DNA of 64,000 nt from Candidatus Helarchaeota archaeon (GTDB lineage: Archaea; Asgardarchaeota; Lokiarchaeia; Helarchaeales; RDOG01). The notes under the pieces were generated by a model. The model did no database searches. It worked only from the letters and a program-made list of their open reading frames with translations, and was not told the origin of the DNA. Positions within the stretch are counted from its first letter, which is position 1. Every line of letters begins with the position of its first letter. Below are positions 582 to 8,653 of this stretch, piece after piece. Made by a program: the position numbers and the translations under genes. The DNA lies in assembly GCA_019058315.1 (NCBI GenBank), contig JAHPZH010000001.1, forward strand, positions 1,191,432 to 1,255,431, written 5' to 3'.

Positions 582-3500
582 ATGAATTTCGGTGAAACCT
601 ACTTATTTTATTTAAAAAGTGCAGATGAGAAGTATTATCGAGTTTCTATCTATGAAGAAGAAGAAAGAACGTATTATTACAGACGAGAATACAAGAAATT
701 TCGGTATTGTATGAGAATTTTATATGATAAAAAGAATGGAAACAGGTTTAAAAAACTCGATGTTGAAAAAGATAAACAAAATAAGGCAAGATCCCCATTT
801 TATAAGCGTATTGGCAAACCTAGAGCAGGTTATGATCCTTATTATGTGTCATATTATGATAAATTTGAAGAACTAATCCCCGAAACCCCCGAACAATTTC
901 TAGAAGTTCTAGGTTTAGAAGATTGCGAATATATTACCGAAGATGAATATGTTAATGCTATTTTTTCATCAATTAAAGATATAGTTGCCCCTGAAGACTA
1001 TGTAAAAAAAGAGAGACGATACCCACACGACTTAAAACGACTTTTAATGATAGCCATGGCAGGCGGCAGACCAACTCAGCGTAATTCGGCCATGAAACGA
1101 ATTTTAAAATGGAGCGATCAAGCTTCTGAGTCATATCATTTCCTAATAGAACATGGTTTGCAAGAAACTATGTTTGGGGCATTGATTTTAGCTACTAAAT
1201 ATAAGATTCTAGGTCTCGAAGATGTGGTAAAGAAAATTGCTGATTCAACAGACGAAGAAAGGGCTTGGATAGAAGGTTATAGCTTCAAATTTGCTCCAAT
1301 TTATGCTAATTTATATTTACATGCTATAACGAACGGTCAACAACCATACATTTGGAAAGACATAGAAAAAATAGCTAATTTAATGCCATCAGATTTTGAA
1401 AACGCTATAAATTTCTTTACAAGTTACACAAAAAAGCCAGATAATGCTTCCACTTATTCTTTTGGTTATGATTTTAAAAAGAAGTATAATGTTGATGACA
1501 ACAACTGGCTACTTATACCAGAATATTTGAAGAATAAAACCATGGATGAAAAATATGAACTTCTTTTAAATGTGGCTAATGGTATTAAATTGACTTATGA
1601 TTATTCAAAATTACATTTTTTATTCAGAACTCCATTTAAAGTTGCTGAGTTAGGCAGGTTTTTGGATCTTCTAGCTTTTATAATGCATCTTATAGACCGA
1701 GACAATTGTACTTGTGGAACTTGTGCTTATTTAAGGCGAAGAGCTAAGCGAGTATTGAAAGAATGGGGAAGGGAAAAGTCTGAAGATTATATTAAAACTG
1801 TAGCCTTATTTTTTGCGCTTCAACCAGAATGGGTTGCCCCATCTTATTATTCTGAACGTTATAGATGGCAATTATTTTACAATAGGCGTATTATTAGGGA
1901 TTTACTTTATGGTAAAAGTAAAAGATCGGGATGGAATGGTCAACTAGTCCGAGGAGACTCGCCCGATATTTTATCTGACGAGCATTGGCAGACTCGTGAA
2001 GAATTCTTCCCCGAATTGTGGAATGAATATCCAAATTATGTGTGGTGGATTTTAGGGAAGACCAAAGTTCCTGCAATTTTAGATTTTTGTTTAAGAGTGC
2101 TTAACCAATCAGATAAGGGTAAAGAATTTCTTAATTCATTAAATCTAAAAGATGTTGTTTCAACACTAGAAATACCATATAATAGAATCCAAGATTTCTT
2201 TTATGAAATTTTGATGAATAGATTAAAAGCGATTGATAAATTACCAGAAGATTTAATTAGTATATTAGTAGAAAGTAATGGACCAAGGGCTTGGGAGCTC
2301 GCTGTTCAGCTTGTAAAAGACAATAAAGCAGAATTAACAGAAGATCAATTCATAATGCTTTGTATAAAGCCCAATCAACGTTTAATAGACTTTTGTAGAG
2401 ATCGTTTAGTAGGATTAGACGAAAATAAAAAGAAAAATATGACAATTCGTATATTTGAGCTTATTAGCATTGAAGAAGATGTTTATAGAATCAATCTTGG
2501 GCTTATAAAGAGTTTAATTGAACGAGCTGAATTGCCAATCTCTGGAGAAACATTAGTTCCACTATTGAGAAGTAAAAATACATTAGGTCAAGAACTAGTA
2601 TCAAGTCTGATAGAAAAACAAGCTCCAAAAGCAGGATTTCTTACTAAAGAGGCTTATATTTCAACTTTTGAAAATTCAGAGGTTTCCTTGGATCTTTGCA
2701 AAATGGTGTCAAAATTTTTAGATAAGGATATAGAAACCTCAACTTTTTCACTAAAAGAAAGTATAGAAATTATTTCAAGCCTATTACAATGTCCTCATGA
2801 AGAAATATTCCTAATCTATGATAGATTATCTGAAAATTTGATATCAAGGACTCCTGAGGGTTCAAATTTATTGCTAGACGGTATAGTTAAAAACTTGGTT
2901 AGAAAGGAAATAAGTCAGAAATTAAGAGAAACATTCCTAGAATTATTAAGGAAGACAAATATTGATATTTGGAAATCAATAGATTCTGAAATTGTTAATA
3001 ATATATCGAAATTAGAAGATCCAGATATTGCGATAATTGGAAATTTAGTTCTAAAATATCAAACTGTAGCAATGCCTGCCAAAGAAACTATTGATGTAGT
3101 AGTGGGTTCGGAAGCCCTTGTAATAAGAAGATATTTAATAGATATATTAGATCTCATCTCTTCAAGGATTGATATAGAGATAAATATTTTAACACCAATA
3201 ATTGAAAGCGATTTTAATGATCTTTTTACTTGGACTTCAGAATATATTAAGAAAGCTGCAATTGATGTCTCAATAAAAACCAAGTATCTACGTAAAATTA
3301 TAGATTCACCTGTAGTTAGGGTTCAGGAATTTAGTTTTAATGTTTTAAAAGAAATTTACAAAGAAAAACTCCCTTATGATATGATTCTCCACTTACTTGA
3401 ACACCCTTCGGAATATGTTAGGGGAGCTATCGCTGAAGAAGTTTCTGATATTAAAGTTTTTGAAAAATTAGTTAATGAAGAACCAGATCTTTTTCTTAGA

Positions 3501-3698
3501 TATATTAAATCAGTAATTTATTTACCGAATAAGCTTGCAAAAGCGAAAGATCGTCTTTTTGAATTGATGATTGATTTTGCTAACTCCTCTCCAAAATATA
3601 AGAAGAATATCAAGGATATTCTCTTGAATGTGGGTGGAGGAGCTATTATTAAAGATAAGGAGCGTGCACTTAAAGCATTTGTTAAGATAACTGATTAA
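582..3698 (+). CDS. Large helical-repeat protein, first gene of the RT operon
   Basis: This 1038-residue protein is unrecognised beyond its architecture. The N-terminal ~120 residues are rich in Tyr, Lys and Arg and look like a small globular domain. The remainder is alpha-helical with HEAT/ARM-like repetition, clearest near the C-terminus (segments such as VRGAIAEEVSDI). A cysteine cluster, C376, C378 and C381, lies in the middle next to a basic stretch (LRRRAKRVLKEW) and may bind metal or nucleic acid; that is inference. No signal peptide or membrane segment is visible. The next gene starts 12 bases after the stop, so it is very probably co-expressed with the SWIM protein and the reverse transcriptase. 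It could be a scaffold or effector of that system. WGR/MolR-like bacterial proteins are a possible relation, but I cannot show it. Confidence 0.85.
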   Translation: MNFGETYLFYLKSADEKYYRVSIYEEEERTYYYRREYKKFRYCMRILYDKKNGNRFKKLDVEKDKQNKARSPFYKRIGKPRAGYDPYYVSYYDKFEELIPETPEQFLEVLGLEDCEYITEDEYVNAIFSSIKDIVAPEDYVKKERRYPHDLKRLLMIAMAGGRPTQRNSAMKRILKWSDQASESYHFLIEHGLQETMFGALILATKYKILGLEDVVKKIADSTDEERAWIEGYSFKFAPIYANLYLHAITNGQQPYIWKDIEKIANLMPSDFENAINFFTSYTKKPDNASTYSFGYDFKKKYNVDDNNWLLIPEYLKNKTMDEKYELLLNVANGIKLTYDYSKLHFLFRTPFKVAELGRFLDLLAFIMHLIDRDNCTCGTCAYLRRRAKRVLKEWGREKSEDYIKTVALFFALQPEWVAPSYYSERYRWQLFYNRRIIRDLLYGKSKRSGWNGQLVRGDSPDILSDEHWQTREEFFPELWNEYPNYVWWILGKTKVPAILDFCLRVLNQSDKGKEFLNSLNLKDVVSTLEIPYNRIQDFFYEILMNRLKAIDKLPEDLISILVESNGPRAWELAVQLVKDNKAELTEDQFIMLCIKPNQRLIDFCRDRLVGLDENKKKNMTIRIFELISIEEDVYRINLGLIKSLIERAELPISGETLVPLLRSKNTLGQELVSSLIEKQAPKAGFLTKEAYISTFENSEVSLDLCKMVSKFLDKDIETSTFSLKESIEIISSLLQCPHEEIFLIYDRLSENLISRTPEGSNLLLDGIVKNLVRKEISQKLRETFLELLRKTNIDIWKSIDSEIVNNISKLEDPDIAIIGNLVLKYQTVAMPAKETIDVVVGSEALVIRRYLIDILDLISSRIDIEINILTPIIESDFNDLFTWTSEYIKKAAIDVSIKTKYLRKIIDSPVVRVQEFSFNVLKEIYKEKLPYDMILHLLEHPSEYVRGAIAEEVSDIKVFEKLVNEEPDLFLRYIKSVIYLPNKLAKAKDRLFELMIDFANSSPKYKKNIKDILLNVGGGAIIKDKERALKAFVKITD

Positions 3699-3710: not shown

Positions 3711-5354
3711 ATGAGTATATCATACCAATTTAATTATGCAACACCTTCCACTTTTGTCGAAAGTGCAGATCTTACTTCATTAGTCTTTTCTACAGATTTA
3801 AATCGCCCTGAAAAAGTTTCATTCAAAGGACGTTTGAAAAACATCTTGCTTTATAGGGACGCAATGCTTGCATTACGTCAAGTTGTAGTTTCTGACCTTA
3901 GAACACCAGTTAAAGATAGATCAGCTTACCTTGAGTGGGAAGGAAAATTTGTTGAACAACTCGCAAGAGAACGCTTAGGTAAAGTAGAGTCTATGAGGGA
4001 AGAAGTATTAAAAGATATAAAATTGCTAGAGCAAGAAAGAAAAGATATCGAAGCTTGGGAAAAAGAGAATTGGAAACAATATTACAAATTAGAAAGACCA
4101 TTTTGGAAATTCATTCAAAATAGGGATAAGGATTTGTGGTGGGTTTTAGATCCTGTAATTTCAGTTCAACCTGATATCGTATCATTTGAGGCTTTTTCTA
4201 AAGATGAATCTACATATGCCAGCTTGAGTGTTAATAGAGATGAATTTGTGATGGAAGAAGAACCGACGCTTGGAACCACTAATATTGACTTTAGTAAAAG
4301 GCTGGCTGATGAATTTCTTAGAATTAGAACAGACAATCCATTAGATTTATCTATTGCTCCAGAAGGGTTTACAGTTGAAACTGGAGAAAGACCAGCTTAT
4401 TTAGAAAAGAAAATAGATTTACCCGAGAGTTGGGTTAGAGGTTTTCTCCAAGTATCCTCAGCTTCAGCATTACCTGGTTATGATTTCAACCTCTCAAAAG
4501 TTGATGTTTATGTTATTTGTAGCTATTTAAGACGAAGAAGAGCTCGTTGGTCTCCTCGCTCTCTACGATGGGAATTAAAACCAAAATATAACATAAGAGT
4601 TGTATTTGAGCCTTGGGAAGAGGTAATTGAACTATCTGCTAAATATTTTGGTCCCGAACCTCAAATAATTCGCACATGGGGTAGAAGAAGGTTATTTCTA
4701 CTTGAAGGCTTAATCCCACATGCCAAAAAGTTTAGAGTACATTTACTGGGTAAAGGACTTCCAGCTTTTTACATCGCAGAAATGCCCGGTATGGTCTTTA
4801 CCTTGGGATTATCAGGTTGGGTTGCAAAAGACTGGTCTGGTGGAGCTGTTTTTAATGCATTATCAGGATTTATCGGAGATACAGTAGTAAAAGATATTGT
4901 TACAAAATTTAAGGAAAATAGACAATACGAGATAGATAAATTACCAAGCGAATTTAAAATTGATCAAAAAGATATAAATTCAACAATTGGCTATCTTTAT
5001 CGCCATGGTAGAGCTTATTATGACTTAGTTAGCTCCAAGATTAGATATAGAGAATTATCTCAAATCCCCTTCCCGAAACACTTGACAGAACCTTCACAAC
5101 TTGAAAAAGATGCTCGGAAATTCATGCCAAGTCTAAAAAATTTCAGAGTTAAACATAACCCAGATAAATCGATCGATGCAACTGCCAAGATGAGAGTAAA
5201 GGATAAAATAAAAGAAATTTCCTTGACAATGTCAGGAGATGGGCAGGTTAAAAAAGCAGATTGTCATTGTAGGGCATTTCAACGCAAAAAACTAACTGGA
5301 GGACCCTGCATTCATTTATTAGCCCTTCAATTCAAAACATTAGATTTGGATTAA
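3711..5354 (+). CDS. SWIM zinc-finger protein
   Basis: This 547-residue protein ends in a SWIM-type zinc finger with the pattern CxCx(n)CxH: C518, C520, C533 and H535. SWIM fingers are known in MuDR transposases, SNF2 relatives and bacterial proteins, and generally bind DNA or protein. The N-terminal ~500 residues match no family I recognise. They contain a charged helical stretch (about residues 80-125) and an aromatic-rich middle with clusters such as LRRRRARWSPRSLRW, which would suit nucleic-acid binding. A good Shine-Dalgarno (AAGGAG) overlaps the end of the upstream gene, and the RT gene begins five bases after the stop. The layout suggests an accessory subunit of the RT system, perhaps recognising the RNA or its cDNA. 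That role is inferred from context only. Confidence 0.85.
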   Translation: MSISYQFNYATPSTFVESADLTSLVFSTDLNRPEKVSFKGRLKNILLYRDAMLALRQVVVSDLRTPVKDRSAYLEWEGKFVEQLARERLGKVESMREEVLKDIKLLEQERKDIEAWEKENWKQYYKLERPFWKFIQNRDKDLWWVLDPVISVQPDIVSFEAFSKDESTYASLSVNRDEFVMEEEPTLGTTNIDFSKRLADEFLRIRTDNPLDLSIAPEGFTVETGERPAYLEKKIDLPESWVRGFLQVSSASALPGYDFNLSKVDVYVICSYLRRRRARWSPRSLRWELKPKYNIRVVFEPWEEVIELSAKYFGPEPQIIRTWGRRRLFLLEGLIPHAKKFRVHLLGKGLPAFYIAEMPGMVFTLGLSGWVAKDWSGGAVFNALSGFIGDTVVKDIVTKFKENRQYEIDKLPSEFKIDQKDINSTIGYLYRHGRAYYDLVSSKIRYRELSQIPFPKHLTEPSQLEKDARKFMPSLKNFRVKHNPDKSIDATAKMRVKDKIKEISLTMSGDGQVKKADCHCRAFQRKKLTGGPCIHLLALQFKTLDLD

Positions 5355-5359
5355 ATAGA

Positions 5360-6748
5360 GTGGTGAAAATGGGTAGAAGAGAAGAATTATACGAAGAAAT
5401 TAAGAAATCATCCAAAGAAGTTGTAACTCTAAGAGAAATGATAAAATTTGGATTTTGGCCAAAAGATATTCCACTACCAGAAATAAATATGGAAATGGTA
5501 GAAAGAAAGAAGGAAGTAATTAAAAAAATTAGGGAATTAAACAAAGAATTGGTAAGAGAACGAACTTTTGATGATGTAGTGAAAGAAATTCGAAAGGAAA
5601 GAATGGCTGAATCTAGAAAAAGAAAAAAATTACGACGTGAAGAAAAAAAGAGATTATACGAAGAACGTAAAGCTGCTTGGGCCAAAAAGCGAGAGGAAGA
5701 AATAGTTCATGTTGGGAATAAGTATTCTGGAATGTTACATAAAAACGAGACCAATATAGAAGCTCTCAAACGTTTTAATTTACCCATAATTCAAAATCAT
5801 ATTGATTTAATTAAAGAATTGCAGATTGATCTCTCTACATTACGATGGCTAACATATCATAGAGATGTAGTTAGTATTTCCCATTATGTTCAATTTGAGG
5901 TTCCCAAGAAATCAGGTGGAATGAGAACAATTTCTGCACCGAAACCTAAAATTGCTGCTGCTCAAAGATATATTTTTGAAAATATTTTATGTAACATACC
6001 ATCATCTAATTGTGCTCATGGTTTTATACAGAAAAGATCAATATTAACTAATTCTAAAGTTCATATTGAAAAAAATCCAAATTTAATTATTAACATAGAT
6101 TTAAAGGATTTTTTTCCATCAATTACGTTTATTAGAGTTAGAGGTTTATTTCAAAAATTAGGCTATTCAGGACAGATCGCCACATTATTAGCAATGCTTT
6201 GCACGGAACCCCATAGAAAAGAAGTTCAAGTAGATGGCGATAAATATTATGTGGCTCTTGGAGATAGAGTGTTACCTCAAGGTGCATGCACAAGTCCAGC
6301 CATCACTAACGTAATATGCTGGCGGCTTGATTCTAGATTAAATGGCTTGGCACGTTCAAAAGGATTTGGCTATTCACGTTATGCTGATGATATAACCTTC
6401 TCTATTCCAAATAAAGAATTCAGGAGTGAAATTGGTAAATTTGTAAATACAGTCAATAAAATTATAAAAGATGAAGGTTTTAGGATTAATAAAAAGAAGA
6501 TTAGAATCCTTGGTAAACATAGAAGACAAGAAATTACTGGATTAGCAGTAAATGAAGGTTACCCGACCATATCCCGTAAATGGCTTCGAAAGCTTAAAGC
6601 CATTTTATATAATTGTAAGACCAAAGGAATAGAAAGTCAAAATATATCCTATCAAACATTACAGGGAATGGTCTCTTTCGTTAATATGGTATCGCCGAAT
6701 AAGGCAAATAAATTTAGAGAGGTATTAAGTAAGATTAAACCAAGTTAA
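5360..6748 (+). CDS. Retron-type reverse transcriptase with basic N-terminal extension
   Basis: This is a 462-residue RNA-directed DNA polymerase. The catalytic aspartates are D247 (in DLKDFFPSI) and D343-D344 (in YADD, 341-344). LPQGACTSP forms the nucleotide-binding motif. Retron hallmarks are present: NSKVH at 231-235 matches the NAxxH motif, and ITGLAVN at 392-398 matches the VTG motif. From memory, the palm resembles myxobacterial retron RTs of the Mx162 kind. Unlike compact retron RTs it has about 115 extra N-terminal residues, including a highly basic predicted coiled coil at about 84-113. There is no maturase or endonuclease domain, which argues against a group II intron. The start may instead be the ATG at 5369, behind GGTG. 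It is the third gene of a tight operon, and three structured RNA units follow immediately; these are its likely templates. Confidence 0.93.
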   Translation: MVKMGRREELYEEIKKSSKEVVTLREMIKFGFWPKDIPLPEINMEMVERKKEVIKKIRELNKELVRERTFDDVVKEIRKERMAESRKRKKLRREEKKRLYEERKAAWAKKREEEIVHVGNKYSGMLHKNETNIEALKRFNLPIIQNHIDLIKELQIDLSTLRWLTYHRDVVSISHYVQFEVPKKSGGMRTISAPKPKIAAAQRYIFENILCNIPSSNCAHGFIQKRSILTNSKVHIEKNPNLIINIDLKDFFPSITFIRVRGLFQKLGYSGQIATLLAMLCTEPHRKEVQVDGDKYYVALGDRVLPQGACTSPAITNVICWRLDSRLNGLARSKGFGYSRYADDITFSIPNKEFRSEIGKFVNTVNKIIKDEGFRINKKKIRILGKHRRQEITGLAVNEGYPTISRKWLRKLKAILYNCKTKGIESQNISYQTLQGMVSFVNMVSPNKANKFREVLSKIKPS

Positions 6749-6762
6749 TTATATAGGAAAGT

Positions 6763-6959
6763 TGGAAACCTTGGCTATTAGTTGCGGTGTCACGCCGTGC
6801 ATGCCGGACCGTTTACCATCCTTCACCGGTCCTTTCATCACTGCCGGCACTATCGACACTATCACAATTTGCGAAGCCAACCTAAGAGGTTCAAATTGCG
6901 ATAGTGTCACGTGCCGTTGAGTAGAAAGTCCCGATCTTGGACTTGATGCAAGGTTTCCA
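6763..6959 (+). ncRNA. Retron-like structured RNA, unit 1
   Basis: This 197-nt unit begins 14 bases after the RT stop codon. An 11-bp terminal inverted repeat (6763-6773 with 6949-6959) closes it like retron a1/a2. TTAG at 6778-6781 is a candidate priming-guanosine site. Inside are a GGACCG/CGGTCC hairpin (6806-6811 with 6827-6832) and a clamp CGGCAC/GTGCCG (6845-6850 with 6911-6916). The clamp leads to a 17-position stem, 6855-6871 with 6892-6908, that is perfect except for A6864.C6899. The stem is capped by a bulge (CGAAGCC) and the hairpin AACCT-AAG-AGGTT. A last hairpin is AAGTCC/GGACTT (6926-6931 with 6939-6944). The unit is far richer in G+C than its surroundings. The + strand is chosen because it matches the RT gene, TTAG and the T-rich tail. 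Production of msDNA is inferred. Confidence 0.85.
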
Positions 6960-6980
6960 TTACTTTCTTTCAAAGATTTT

Positions 6981-6990
6981 AAATATTTAT
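6981..6990 (+). promoter_or_regulatory. Possible TATA box of RNA unit 2
   Basis: The sequence aaatatttat lies about 30 bases before the first paired base of unit 2 (7019), at the usual archaeal TATA distance. The spacer is AT-rich throughout, so the evidence is positional and modest. Confidence 0.35.
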
Positions 6991-7018
6991 AGAAAATTTG
7001 CAAACCTAAAATAATTAG

Positions 7019-7211
7019 AAGACCTTGGCTATTAGTTGCGGTGTTACGCCGTGCATGCCGGACCGTTTACCATCCTTCACCGGTCCTTTCGTCACTGCCG
7101 GCACTATCGACCCTATCGAAATTTGCGAAGCCAACCTGAGAGGTTCAAATTCCGATAGGGTCACGTGCCGTTGAGTAGAAAGTCCCGATCTTGGACTTGT
7201 TGCAAGGTCTT
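7019..7211 (+). ncRNA. Retron-like structured RNA, unit 2
   Basis: This second copy begins 60 bases after unit 1 ends and is displaced 254 bases from it. The terminal stem is nine pairs (7019-7027 with 7203-7211) and shows two compensatory changes relative to unit 1. TTAG is at 7032-7035. The clamp is 7099-7104 with 7165-7170, and the 3' hairpin is 7180-7185 with 7193-7198. The variable stem, 7109-7125 with 7146-7162, starts GACCCTATCG and pairs fully except for A7119.C7152, one position deeper than the mismatch in units 1 and 3. Between the terminal and variable stems the scaffold differs from unit 1 at only three positions: T7045, G7091 and T7200. A run of eight Ts follows. Confidence 0.85.
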
Positions 7212-7218
7212 ACCTCTC

Positions 7219-7226
7219 TTTTTTTT
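7219..7226 (+). terminator. T-run after RNA unit 2
   Basis: Eight consecutive Ts follow the closing stem of unit 2 by seven bases. Archaeal RNA polymerase terminates at such runs, so this may set the 3' end of the second RNA, or thin out read-through into the third. Confidence 0.5.
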
Positions 7227-7242
7227 AAAAAGATTACGAAAA

Positions 7243-7251
7243 TTATATATA
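7243..7251 (+). promoter_or_regulatory. Probable TATA box of RNA unit 3
   Basis: The sequence ttatatata is centred about 28 bases before the first paired base of unit 3 (7275), which is the expected archaeal spacing. With the T-run that ends unit 2, this suggests unit 3 can be transcribed on its own. Confidence 0.45.
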
Positions 7252-7274
7252 CATAAAAATAGACAAAAATAACT

Positions 7275-7471
7275 GGAAGATCTTGGCTATTAGTTGCGGT
7301 GTCACGCCGTGCATGCCGGACCGTTTACCATCCTTCACCGGTCCTTTCATCACTGCCGGCACTATTGACCATAGTATATTTTGCGAAGCCAACCTAAAAG
7401 GTTCAAAATACACTATGGTCACGTGCCGTTGAGTAGAAAGTCCCGATCTTGGACTTGTTGCAAGGTCTTCC
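7275..7471 (+). ncRNA. Retron-like structured RNA, unit 3
   Basis: This third copy is displaced 512 bases from unit 1 and is again 197 nt. The terminal stem is 11 positions (7275-7285 with 7461-7471) with one G.U pair at T7281/G7465. TTAG is at 7290-7293. The clamp is 7357-7362 with 7423-7428, and the 3' hairpin is 7438-7443 with 7451-7456. The variable stem, 7367-7383 with 7404-7420, starts GACCATAGT and is the most divergent of the three. It still pairs at all positions except A7376.C7411, the same position as the mismatch in unit 1. Outside the stems the scaffold differs from unit 1 only at T7366 and T7458. A poly-T run follows at once. Confidence 0.85.
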
Positions 7472-7479
7472 CTTTTTTT
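7461..7479 (+). terminator. Terminator of the RNA array
   Basis: The 3' arm of unit 3's closing stem runs into CCTTTTTTT, ending at 7479. A stable stem followed by seven Ts is a good terminator. Only AT-rich DNA with no gene separates it from the convergent gene whose stop codon begins at 7604. Confidence 0.55.
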
Positions 7480-7603: not shown

Positions 7604-8653
7604 CTAAGATGGGGCATATTTCCTTATTTTATTCGAAAATTTTTTAATTTTATTAATAGAGCTTGGATAATTTACAATCAAAGTTTTTTCAATAATTTCT
7701 AATATATCCTTATTAATTTTTTTACCAAATTTTTTTAAATCAGCATCTGAAACGGTTTCAGTATTTATGATATTTAGCAATTCTACAATTCTTTCAAATA
7801 ATAAATTAATTTCATCAACATATACTGCCCTGGCTTGGAAAGTGTCTAAATCCTTTATTTTTTTCACTAAATTATTAAAATATTTATTATTTTTTATACC
7901 AATTAGGGTATTTTTTTCAAGATCAATAATCACAGAATCTATTACAAAAAGCCCAAGAAGATCTTGAGGGACTCCAACAATATCAACTAGGGTCTCAGCA
8001 AGAGTGTTTGCCCAATAATTTGTTTTTAAAATGCGATTTGGTGTAAACAATTTTAAAGAATCAATTAATAATTTAATCAGAGCTCGATCGCCAGAGATAA
8101 CAATTCGTCTTCCAATAAATATAGAATAAATCACTTTTGCAAAATTTTTCTTTAAAGTATTAAATAAAAAACTAAGGCTTATTTGTCTTGGTTTAATATT
8201 ATATTTTTCTTTAAAGTATGCGATTTTAGACTGATCTATTTCCTCATCCCCCATTCTTTCATTTATTATTTGAATAGTTTTGTCTACATATTTTTCAAAA
8301 GGTTTAAGATACCTATAATTGATTAATTCAGAATTTATATGCTTATCCTTATATATATTCAAATATTGCTCACTTAATTGACTTAGAACAATTTTTAAAG
8401 CATCATCATCGTCATTCTGATCTGCAATAATTATCAGATTAAGGTCATGTTTAATATCAATTGAACGATAGAGGATTTTTGATTTGCCTAATATTATCGC
8501 TTCTACCTCATCACTACTTATATTTTTAGCAATCATAGAAACCGCTGATAAAAATGAACCAAATAAACTTGGTTGCATGGAAATTTCAGTGTCAAAACTC
8601 CTTGAAAATATACAAACAGAACGGTTATTTATTAAAACCATTTTTATAGGCAA
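7604..8653 (-). CDS. Longin/roadblock-like protein
   Basis: This 349-residue soluble protein has an N-terminal ~110 residues resembling the longin/roadblock-like fold common in Asgard archaea. A first strand (VLINNRSVCIFSRSF) is followed by a helix in LFGSFLSAVSMIAKNI, then strands such as KILYRSIDIKHDLNLIIIAD, then a helix. The remaining ~230 residues are helical, Ile- and Lys-rich, and unassigned. Such domains bind or regulate small GTPases in eukaryotes; a similar role here is inferred from family knowledge. The first start is TTG (8653), with an ATG four codons in at 8641. It converges on the RNA array but shows no link to it. Confidence 0.75.
   Translation of the reverse strand: MPIKMVLINNRSVCIFSRSFDTEISMQPSLFGSFLSAVSMIAKNISSDEVEAIILGKSKILYRSIDIKHDLNLIIIADQNDDDDALKIVLSQLSEQYLNIYKDKHINSELINYRYLKPFEKYVDKTIQIINERMGDEEIDQSKIAYFKEKYNIKPRQISLSFLFNTLKKNFAKVIYSIFIGRRIVISGDRALIKLLIDSLKLFTPNRILKTNYWANTLAETLVDIVGVPQDLLGLFVIDSVIIDLEKNTLIGIKNNKYFNNLVKKIKDLDTFQARAVYVDEINLLFERIVELLNIINTETVSDADLKKFGKKINKDILEIIEKTLIVNYPSSINKIKKFSNKIRKYAPS

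Follow-up and report, generated by a model that had tools for sequence, protein, structure and literature searches.

Three tandem msr-msd-like RNA units downstream of a type XIII retron reverse transcriptase in an Asgard archaeon

Retrons are usually viewed as systems of one reverse transcriptase (RT), one non-coding RNA (ncRNA) and one trigger path. Retron Eco1 (Ec86) has a single ncRNA, located upstream of its RT, and its effector is other than that of type XIII. The standard layout, according to a review, places the msr-msd region upstream of the RT, and variations are named (PMC6868368). Here we describe a locus with three units downstream of the RT, which departs from this order of a single upstream ncRNA. 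The locus lies in a 64,000-nucleotide stretch of DNA from Candidatus Helarchaeota archaeon, an Asgard archaeon (assembly GCA_019058315.1, contig JAHPZH010000001.1, positions 1,191,432 to 1,255,431 of the forward strand); this whole stretch is referred to as the window. We propose, with a probability of roughly 0.55, that its one RT copies the three units into three reverse-transcribed DNAs (RT-DNAs), each with a stem of its own and each acting as a separate guard bait, and we infer that the three baits serve one guard. The proposal builds on the gene set, the RNA family, the three units, their paired but differing stems and the recurrence of arrays, and, for a second form of the RNA called Loki-type below, on msd-only copies of both units of an array within one genome.

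Several described systems come close to this locus. One type XIII retron is listed, as a PADLOC prediction only, in Variovorax (PMC11953036). The likeness of the window to this type extends to all three proteins and to the RNA family seen at type XIII-like loci of bacteria; those loci have the RNA before the RT, with an array in 8 of 59, whereas the window has three units after the RT, in an Asgard host. Retron Eco1 shares with the window an msr, a long msd hairpin and outer arms, and its RT is the closest solved structure to the window RT (PDB comparison, E 6e-43). For Retron-Nex1 (Ne160) of Nannocystis exedens, the review describes several duplicated msr-msd repeats with no RT within a kilobase, and the titles of papers from 1997 and 2002 cited there refer to repeats resembling multicopy single-stranded DNA (msDNA) and to likely retrotransposed msDNA in Nannocystis (PMC6868368). 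Duplicated msr-msd repeats and a proposed retrotransposition of msDNA make up the likeness; Retron-Nex1 is bacterial, whereas the dispersed msd-only copies in Loki-type Asgard genomes represent both stems of a single array. DRT2, DRT9 and DRT10 also employ a defence RT that makes DNA from an ncRNA. By motif and by family, in contrast, the RT of the window is a retron RT, and outer arms and an msd hairpin of the retron kind are seen in its RNA.

Archaeal hosts for retrons are not new, because Methanosarcina acetivorans has matches to SWIM_XIII and RT_XIII, alone among 14 control genomes; the same organism is named as carrying a putative retron in the review (PMC6868368). A search for literature on tandem or multiple retron ncRNAs found nothing on point among openly licensed PMC papers. 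Because duplicated msr-msd and msDNA-like repeats are on record for Nannocystis, the novelty is at the level of a variant: the locus is a new form of the already described type XIII retron.

The three protein genes of the locus (Table 1) are co-directional and separated by gaps of 12 nt and 5 nt. An earlier reading of the sequence (the original prediction) had suggested an undescribed RT system, which is not the case, as all three genes match type XIII retron models; judged by sequence, they are a complete type XIII retron gene set in one operon. The 1038-amino-acid WGR/HEAT-ARM protein has no match in Pfam. In the SWIM protein the CxC...CxH motif is intact and lies near the C terminus. The RT has an intact YADD catalytic motif and carries NSKVH and ITG, the NAxxH-like and VTG-like motifs (names in general use for retron RTs, and those of the original prediction) by which a retron-type RT had correctly been recognized. 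Among 24 aligned sequences, N and A of the first motif occur in at least 90% and its H in all 24, and T and G of the second are invariant. The nearest RT homologue is 90% identical and is named Promethearchaeota, in agreement with an archaeal host; among viral contigs, the top match to the RT is 35% identical in its best segment and the second 39%.

Unit 1 follows the RT stop codon by 15 nt. The three units are direct copies, the outer two having 88% and 90% identity to the middle one over 214 nt, and the outer arms pair perfectly over 10, 9 and 11 bp in units 1, 2 and 3. The minimum free energies are -80.8 kcal/mol for unit 1 (z -6.0) and -75.7 kcal/mol for unit 3 (z -6.3), and in both cases none of 200 shuffles was as low; the shuffle test comprised these two units, unit 2 being folded without shuffles. 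The two spacers between the units show no relationship: their local alignment scores 11, where shuffled sequences average 10.25 and reach at most 15. The earlier description of three structured, msr-msd-like units of 193-197 nt, conserved in themselves and separated by unrelated spacers, is thus confirmed. No fourth copy was found in the genome of the window at E <= 1e-3.

By their arms, folds and consensus, the units have the outer inverted repeats of a retron (a1/a2) around an msr hairpin and a long msd hairpin. The priming guanosine of retrons sits next to a1, classically in AGC. At the candidate priming site the window units read TTGGC and not AGC, and a TTG that closes a1 is invariant across 32 aligned units. 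It is this TTG that the family conserves; a TTAG close to the 5′ arm, to which the original prediction had drawn attention, is present (ggctatTAGttgc) but is not conserved in this way. The msd borders given for the window units in Table 1 are tentative, being inferred from the layout of Loki-type units and from the ends of dispersed copies, a form that no model links to that of the window.

The same RNA family was found at bacterial loci. A scan of genome contigs with the single window RT gave no relative; an alignment-based scan gave 575 RT relatives, and the best 80 of these form the bacterial set. The loci are termed type XIII-like here since they were picked by RT and not each by SWIM and WGR genes. 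In several of them, repeats of about 250 nt lie ahead of the RT. A bacteria-only profile found units 2, 1 and 3 in the 64-kb window (E 2.6e-12, 3.7e-9 and 5.1e-8) and nothing besides them at E <= 1. Because this model picks exactly those three, the window units belong, on sequence criteria, to the RNA family of the bacterial type XIII-like loci, as that family is delimited here from their RT loci. The 32 units (three from the window, 29 bacterial) can be aligned over almost their whole length, and 21 of the 29 predicted pairs of their consensus show both-sided changes. Applied to 87 sources, R1, a covariance model of these 32 units, gave 73 matches at E <= 1, of which 70 also reach E <= 0.001; three of the 73 are in the window and 70 are spread across 59 of the 80 bacterial RT loci (57 loci at E <= 0.001). 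All matches at bacterial loci precede the RT on the RT strand; R1 found none at the other 21 of the 80 loci, some of which are cut or have the unit elsewhere.

When 30 of the 80 bacterial genomes were scanned with R1, 28 were positive. Eight places with units away from known RT loci were fetched (L304-L311), and none of the eight has an RT. The unit lies near SWIM in L304, L305, L306 and L311, in three of these four also near HEAT, and the units of L307-L310 are without a match to any of the three window proteins at E <= 1e-10. L311 holds the second half of the Aureispira array described below, and L310 may have broken off from beside an RT that lies at the end of a contig. The units without an RT in the fetched stretch (L304-L310) have the appearance of split or trans-encoded retrons, and a single RT may serve units encoded elsewhere. 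By the original prediction, units that occur widely without an RT would speak against it, and here the outcome is mixed. For the window form this is seen in several bacterial units but hardly among Asgard archaea, where 227 genomes hold, besides the window, one lone unit (L187, G083:C99:960-1138). This unit has outer arms; its metagenome-assembled genome, 66% complete, has no RT_XIII or SWIM_XIII match, and the open reading frames of its 9.7-kb contig, which is masked in places, include no RT.

Arrays recur at other loci. At least two units are present at 8 of the 59 unit-bearing bacterial loci, and 51 show one in the stretch examined. Three-unit arrays occur in Aureispira and in Saprospiraceae L034, and two units in Saprospiraceae L021 and L062, Planctomycetes L024 and L030, Pyrinomonadaceae L047 and Beggiatoa L037, where 1.3 kb separates them. 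Aureispira has, in addition to three units ahead of its RT, the end of a fourth at the contig start, which is 98% identical over 64 nt to a complete unit that follows HEAT and SWIM genes at the border of a different contig; by sequence, this array probably comprises four units. Among the 227 Asgard genomes, SWIM_XIII is nearly full length in four and gives any match in ten. The four Asgard loci have three units (window), three (G098, L177), two (G160, L179) and one (G154), and thus arrays at three of four; the lone unit of G154 lies about 3.2 kb downstream of its RT. The RNA is downstream of the RT at all four and at one Clostridium locus (L079), and these five RTs fall into one clade (nine rows including P0001-P0004, support 80/85). 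The WGR_XIII proteins of G098 and G154 have long leucine-rich repeats (L177:787-5826, L178:9876-14069), and the RT of G160 has a C-terminal BRCT domain (L179:9129-11378). Both WGR and BRCT domains occur in proteins that sense DNA breaks, PARP1 being an example.

Two RNA forms exist among these loci. The window units have the bacterial form, and the units of G098, G154, G160 and Clostridium have the Loki-type form (covariance model R2). Gene set, position downstream of the RT, length (about 180-200 nt), outer arms, first hairpin and long second hairpin are the same in both, and the two may be diverged relatives. A profile trained jointly on both forms finds both, which no single-form model does; the bacteria-only profile detected no Loki-type unit. 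A single RNA family for all Asgard units is not supported, since the two covariance models likewise do not cross-detect. Two further observations concern Asgard loci. RT_XIII scores of 364-412 bits are reached by RTs of another Asgard class (L222-L225, in G033, G034, G035 and G037), in whose genomes neither R1 nor R2 has a match; these RTs are possibly a further retron branch with another RNA. At L180 (G151:C116), SWIM_XIII is matched in part (E 2e-25), and some 0.8 kb away the opposite strand carries a short and weak R2 match; no RT is present, and this is perhaps a decayed retron.

We compared 19 unit pairs from 11 arrays (8 bacterial, 3 Asgard) for a shared scaffold and a variable hairpin stem. 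The scaffold is identical at 2041 of 2294 positions (89%) and the stem at 881 of 1255 (70%), the stem being the less conserved part in 18 of the 19 pairs. Among stem base pairs, 413 are the same, 139 differ on both sides with pairing kept, 16 differ on one side and 56 are broken. Clean both-sided replacement, with no one-sided or broken pair, occurs at a Planctomycetota locus (L024; 12 stem pairs replaced, scaffold 96% identical), in Planctomicrobium (L030; 7 pairs, 98%) and in Saprospiraceae L062 (9 pairs, 97%). Between window units 1 and 3, 6 of 30 stem pairs differ and all six are compensated. As far as such comparisons can tell, the stem is kept as a stem, with part of its sequence free or favoured to change. 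The idea of several interchangeable templates, put forward originally for the window, fits this recurrence of arrays with differing stems at other type XIII-like loci. In 68 stem arms, GTA/TAC occurs 116 times against 45 expected, CTA/TAG 91 against 45 and AAG/CTT 10 against 46, figures that are inflated by related arms and by the included conserved tip. The arms are also poor in CTC/GAG, and purine runs look avoided. Depletion of wobble pairs in the msd was considered as a sign of function as DNA and was not used, as a1/a2 pairs are low as well (GU pairs: 162 of 3057 in the msd, 101 of 711 in the first hairpin and 80 of 1213 in a1/a2).

In the proposed mechanism, each unit would first be transcribed, probably with separate promoters for units 2 and 3. 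Candidate boxes precede these two units (Table 1), runs of 8 T and 7 T follow them, and TATA-like boxes stand 27-38 nt ahead of six of eight examined Asgard array units in a scan without background control; the boxes suggest that array units may be transcribed separately. The RT would then bind the common msr scaffold, prime at the G that ends a1 and copy back as far as the stretch that immediately follows the first hairpin. RT, RNA and RT-DNA together would keep the SWIM and WGR/HEAT proteins inactive until a virus or mobile element cuts, methylates or binds one of the stems, upon which the effectors would be freed and growth would stop. With three different stems, one effector set would sense more and be more difficult to escape. 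Some RT-DNA of Loki-type relatives also appears to have entered the chromosome. The roles are assigned in this way, with the scaffold recruiting the RT, the variable stem being sensed and SWIM and WGR/HEAT forming the effector side, because of what two sources say of other retrons: phage products perturb the RT-DNA and a toxic effector is freed, methylation of RT-DNA being a named trigger (PMC12548924), and msr and RT are paired and the msd is variable (PMC6868368).

The evidence that bears on reverse transcription comes from dispersed copies of the Loki-type RNA. With stricter filters, R2 matched 60 places in 25 of the 227 Asgard genomes. Six are at type XIII RT loci. For the other 54, the contig has no RT_XIII match at E <= 1e-20, a threshold at which 21 of the 25 genomes likewise have none. 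Forty of the 54 were fetched and aligned to a full-unit profile of 225 positions built on the seven array or RT-linked units, which span at least positions 8-219. The copies start at 61-86, directly after the first hairpin (33 of 40), at 121-125 (3), at 29-37 (3) or at 13 (L251), and end at 182-201, up to the first a2 base (33), at 132 and 138 (2) or at 207-215 (5). One of them is a complete unit (L251), three have the first hairpin and 36 lack it. Occurrence without an RT, which the original prediction had regarded as adverse, is seen for the Loki-type form at 54 of 60 places, but with 36 of 40 fetched copies lacking the first hairpin these places look like products of reverse transcription and not free-standing RNA genes.

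The copies have several other properties of this kind. L263 and L264 (G160) and L274 (G104) miss the 5′ half alone, as shortened reverse transcripts would. In G160, eight copies divide evenly between the two array units: four are closest to unit 1 (L238, identical to it over 121 nt) and four to unit 2 (L236, 99.2% over 128 nt), and none of the eight reaches a2 or the first hairpin; a ninth is equidistant from both units. G158 has 11 copies that are 96.6-100% identical to their own consensus over 117-130 nt, with differing flanks. Because the borders are common, the shortening is one-sided and the copies descend from both array units, we read them as probable integrated reverse transcripts, which is indirect evidence for reverse transcription of each array unit. 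At least some copies appear to be real, since G151 and G140 have one in common at the same intergenic site (93% identity over the 1056 nt that hold the copy and 88% over the next 2428), and since a homologue of the right flank of L242 (L284, 94%) has the msd end at the same junction. The copies in L236-L275 (G160, G158, G157, G151 and others) are a possible retron-derived repeat family of Lokiarchaeia. One msd copy in G160 (L241:1577-2563) is in two parts about 860 bp apart, which looks like the result of an insertion by another element.

A broader proposal is that of a multi-bait retron in which swappable ncRNAs, some of them in trans and each giving an RT-DNA with its own stem, supply one RT and one guard complex, and whose Loki-type RT-DNAs would be written back as a record of the templates used; this we offer tentatively, at less than even odds. 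If one RT does serve several bait templates, the range of sensing could change without new proteins, and the stems could be used to search for triggers and to produce several RT-DNAs simultaneously. Natural, in-genome RT-DNA ends for Loki-type retrons would be available in the dispersed msd copies, which would also suggest entry of retron DNA into archaeal chromosomes.

A number of observations weigh against the proposal that three units act as three baits, and they are taken here together with the alternatives to which most of them lend themselves. The units might be plain duplicates that raise the amount of one RNA, their stems differing as only pairing is selected; we consider this unlikely, though it survives best. 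The lower conservation of the stem in nearly all unit pairs would follow from it, and so would the single unit at 51 of 59 unit-bearing bacterial loci. The window stems are still 80-93% identical and so far from replaced. Drift constrained by pairing only would account for stem differences without selection for variety, which sequence alone cannot separate. Of the 56 broken pairs, 44 fall in L177 unit 1 (18 + 10) and L034 unit 3 (11 + 5), where either pairing is lost or the alignment fails. In addition, a TATA-like box is missing at the usual distance upstream of window unit 1, and no functional study of a type XIII retron was found in the openly licensed literature. Against mere dosage stand the non-random make-up of the stems, with the inflation mentioned above, and the clean replacement of 7-12 stem pairs within scaffolds that are 96-98% identical.

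Somewhat less likely again is the explanation that the Loki-type copies are independent repeats like miniature inverted-repeat transposable elements (MITEs), or that they arose in assembly, unrelated contigs having been joined through abundant free msDNA or a collapsed repeat. No target-site duplications were seen at the copies, and no clean empty site was found, as none of 10 joined flanks from G158 and G160 was contiguous in four genomes of the genus (in three of the four, scoring covered 40 of 94, 40 of 65 and 40 of 59 first-look candidates). G158, an 88% complete assembly, has its 11 copies and no RT_XIII match, most R2-positive genomes likewise have none, and the flanks of copies are often gene fragments. 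Homologues of both flanks of L259 and of the right flank of L258 (94-97%) continue differently, so that these copies lie at breakpoints, either as DNA captured at a break or as a 125-nt repeat mis-resolved in assembly. MITE-like repeats or misassembly would, however, not be expected to end at the borders between first hairpin and a2, to miss the 5′ half alone in three copies, to match two different units of one array, to be inherited at the same site in two species or to keep the msd end at the junction shared by L242 and L284. For the window itself, its own genome has no dispersed copy, and the retrocopy evidence is tied to it only by the gene set and layout common to its Loki-type relatives. 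When both models are run without filters, the highest R2 score of a window unit is 5.1 bits, from the first hairpin, and R1 detects none of the Loki-type array units and scores the Clostridium unit at 13.1 bits. The sole match of a Loki-only profile is a weak one (E 0.0017), to the 5′ end of unit 1 in the window.

It is improbable that the units serve different proteins, one RNA each for SWIM, WGR/HEAT and RT, instead of different triggers. Three genes and three units in the window would suit such a division, as would the fact that the units differ mainly in one hairpin; however, G154 has the same three genes and one unit behind its RT, bacterial RT loci range from one to four units, and the scaffold, the simplest target for a protein, is common to the units of an array. 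An unrelated guide or regulatory RNA array standing behind the RT by chance, which the lack of an Rfam match for the window units at gathering scores might suggest, is highly improbable and was rejected on the result of the bacteria-only model, and the family is moreover present at 59 of 80 type XIII-like RT loci.

Table 1. Features of the type XIII retron locus, in window positions. R1 scores of the units are high by construction, as the model was trained on them among others; promoter candidates come from the scan without background control.
Feature	Position	Strand	Details
WGR/HEAT-ARM protein, type XIII retron	582..3698	+	1038 aa; PADLOC WGR_XIII E 4e-47, HEAT-ARM_XIII E 8e-15
SWIM zinc-finger protein, type XIII retron	3711..5354	+	547 aa; PADLOC SWIM_XIII E 7e-172; Pfam SWIM E 7e-5
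Type XIII retron reverse transcriptase	5360..6748	+	462 aa; PADLOC RT_XIII E 8e-164, best of 51 families
ncRNA unit 1 (msr-msd)	6764..6958	+	195 nt; outer arms 6764-6773 / 6949-6958; R1 match 6769-6953, 108.5 bits
Tentative msd (reverse-transcribed part), unit 1	6812..6947	+	layout transferred by hand
Variable hairpin, unit 1	6855..6908	+	arms 6855-6871 / 6892-6908; from sequence
TATA-like TTTATA	6986..6991	+	about 30 nt before unit 2; candidate own promoter
ncRNA unit 2 (msr-msd)	7019..7211	+	193 nt; outer arms 7019-7027 / 7203-7211; R1 match 7023-7207, 109.6 bits
Tentative msd, unit 2	~7066-7201	+	layout transferred by hand
Variable hairpin, unit 2	7109..7162	+	arms 7109-7125 / 7146-7162; from sequence
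TATA-like TTATATA	7243..7249	+	about 31 nt before unit 3; candidate own promoter
ncRNA unit 3 (msr-msd)	7275..7471	+	197 nt; outer arms 7275-7285 / 7461-7471; R1 match 7281-7465, 105.9 bits
Tentative msd, unit 3	~7324-7459	+	layout transferred by hand
Variable hairpin, unit 3	7367..7420	+	arms 7367-7383 / 7404-7420; from sequence

Adjoining the array and facing it, a 349-amino-acid protein without a Pfam or PADLOC match is encoded on the minus strand (window positions 7604-8653).

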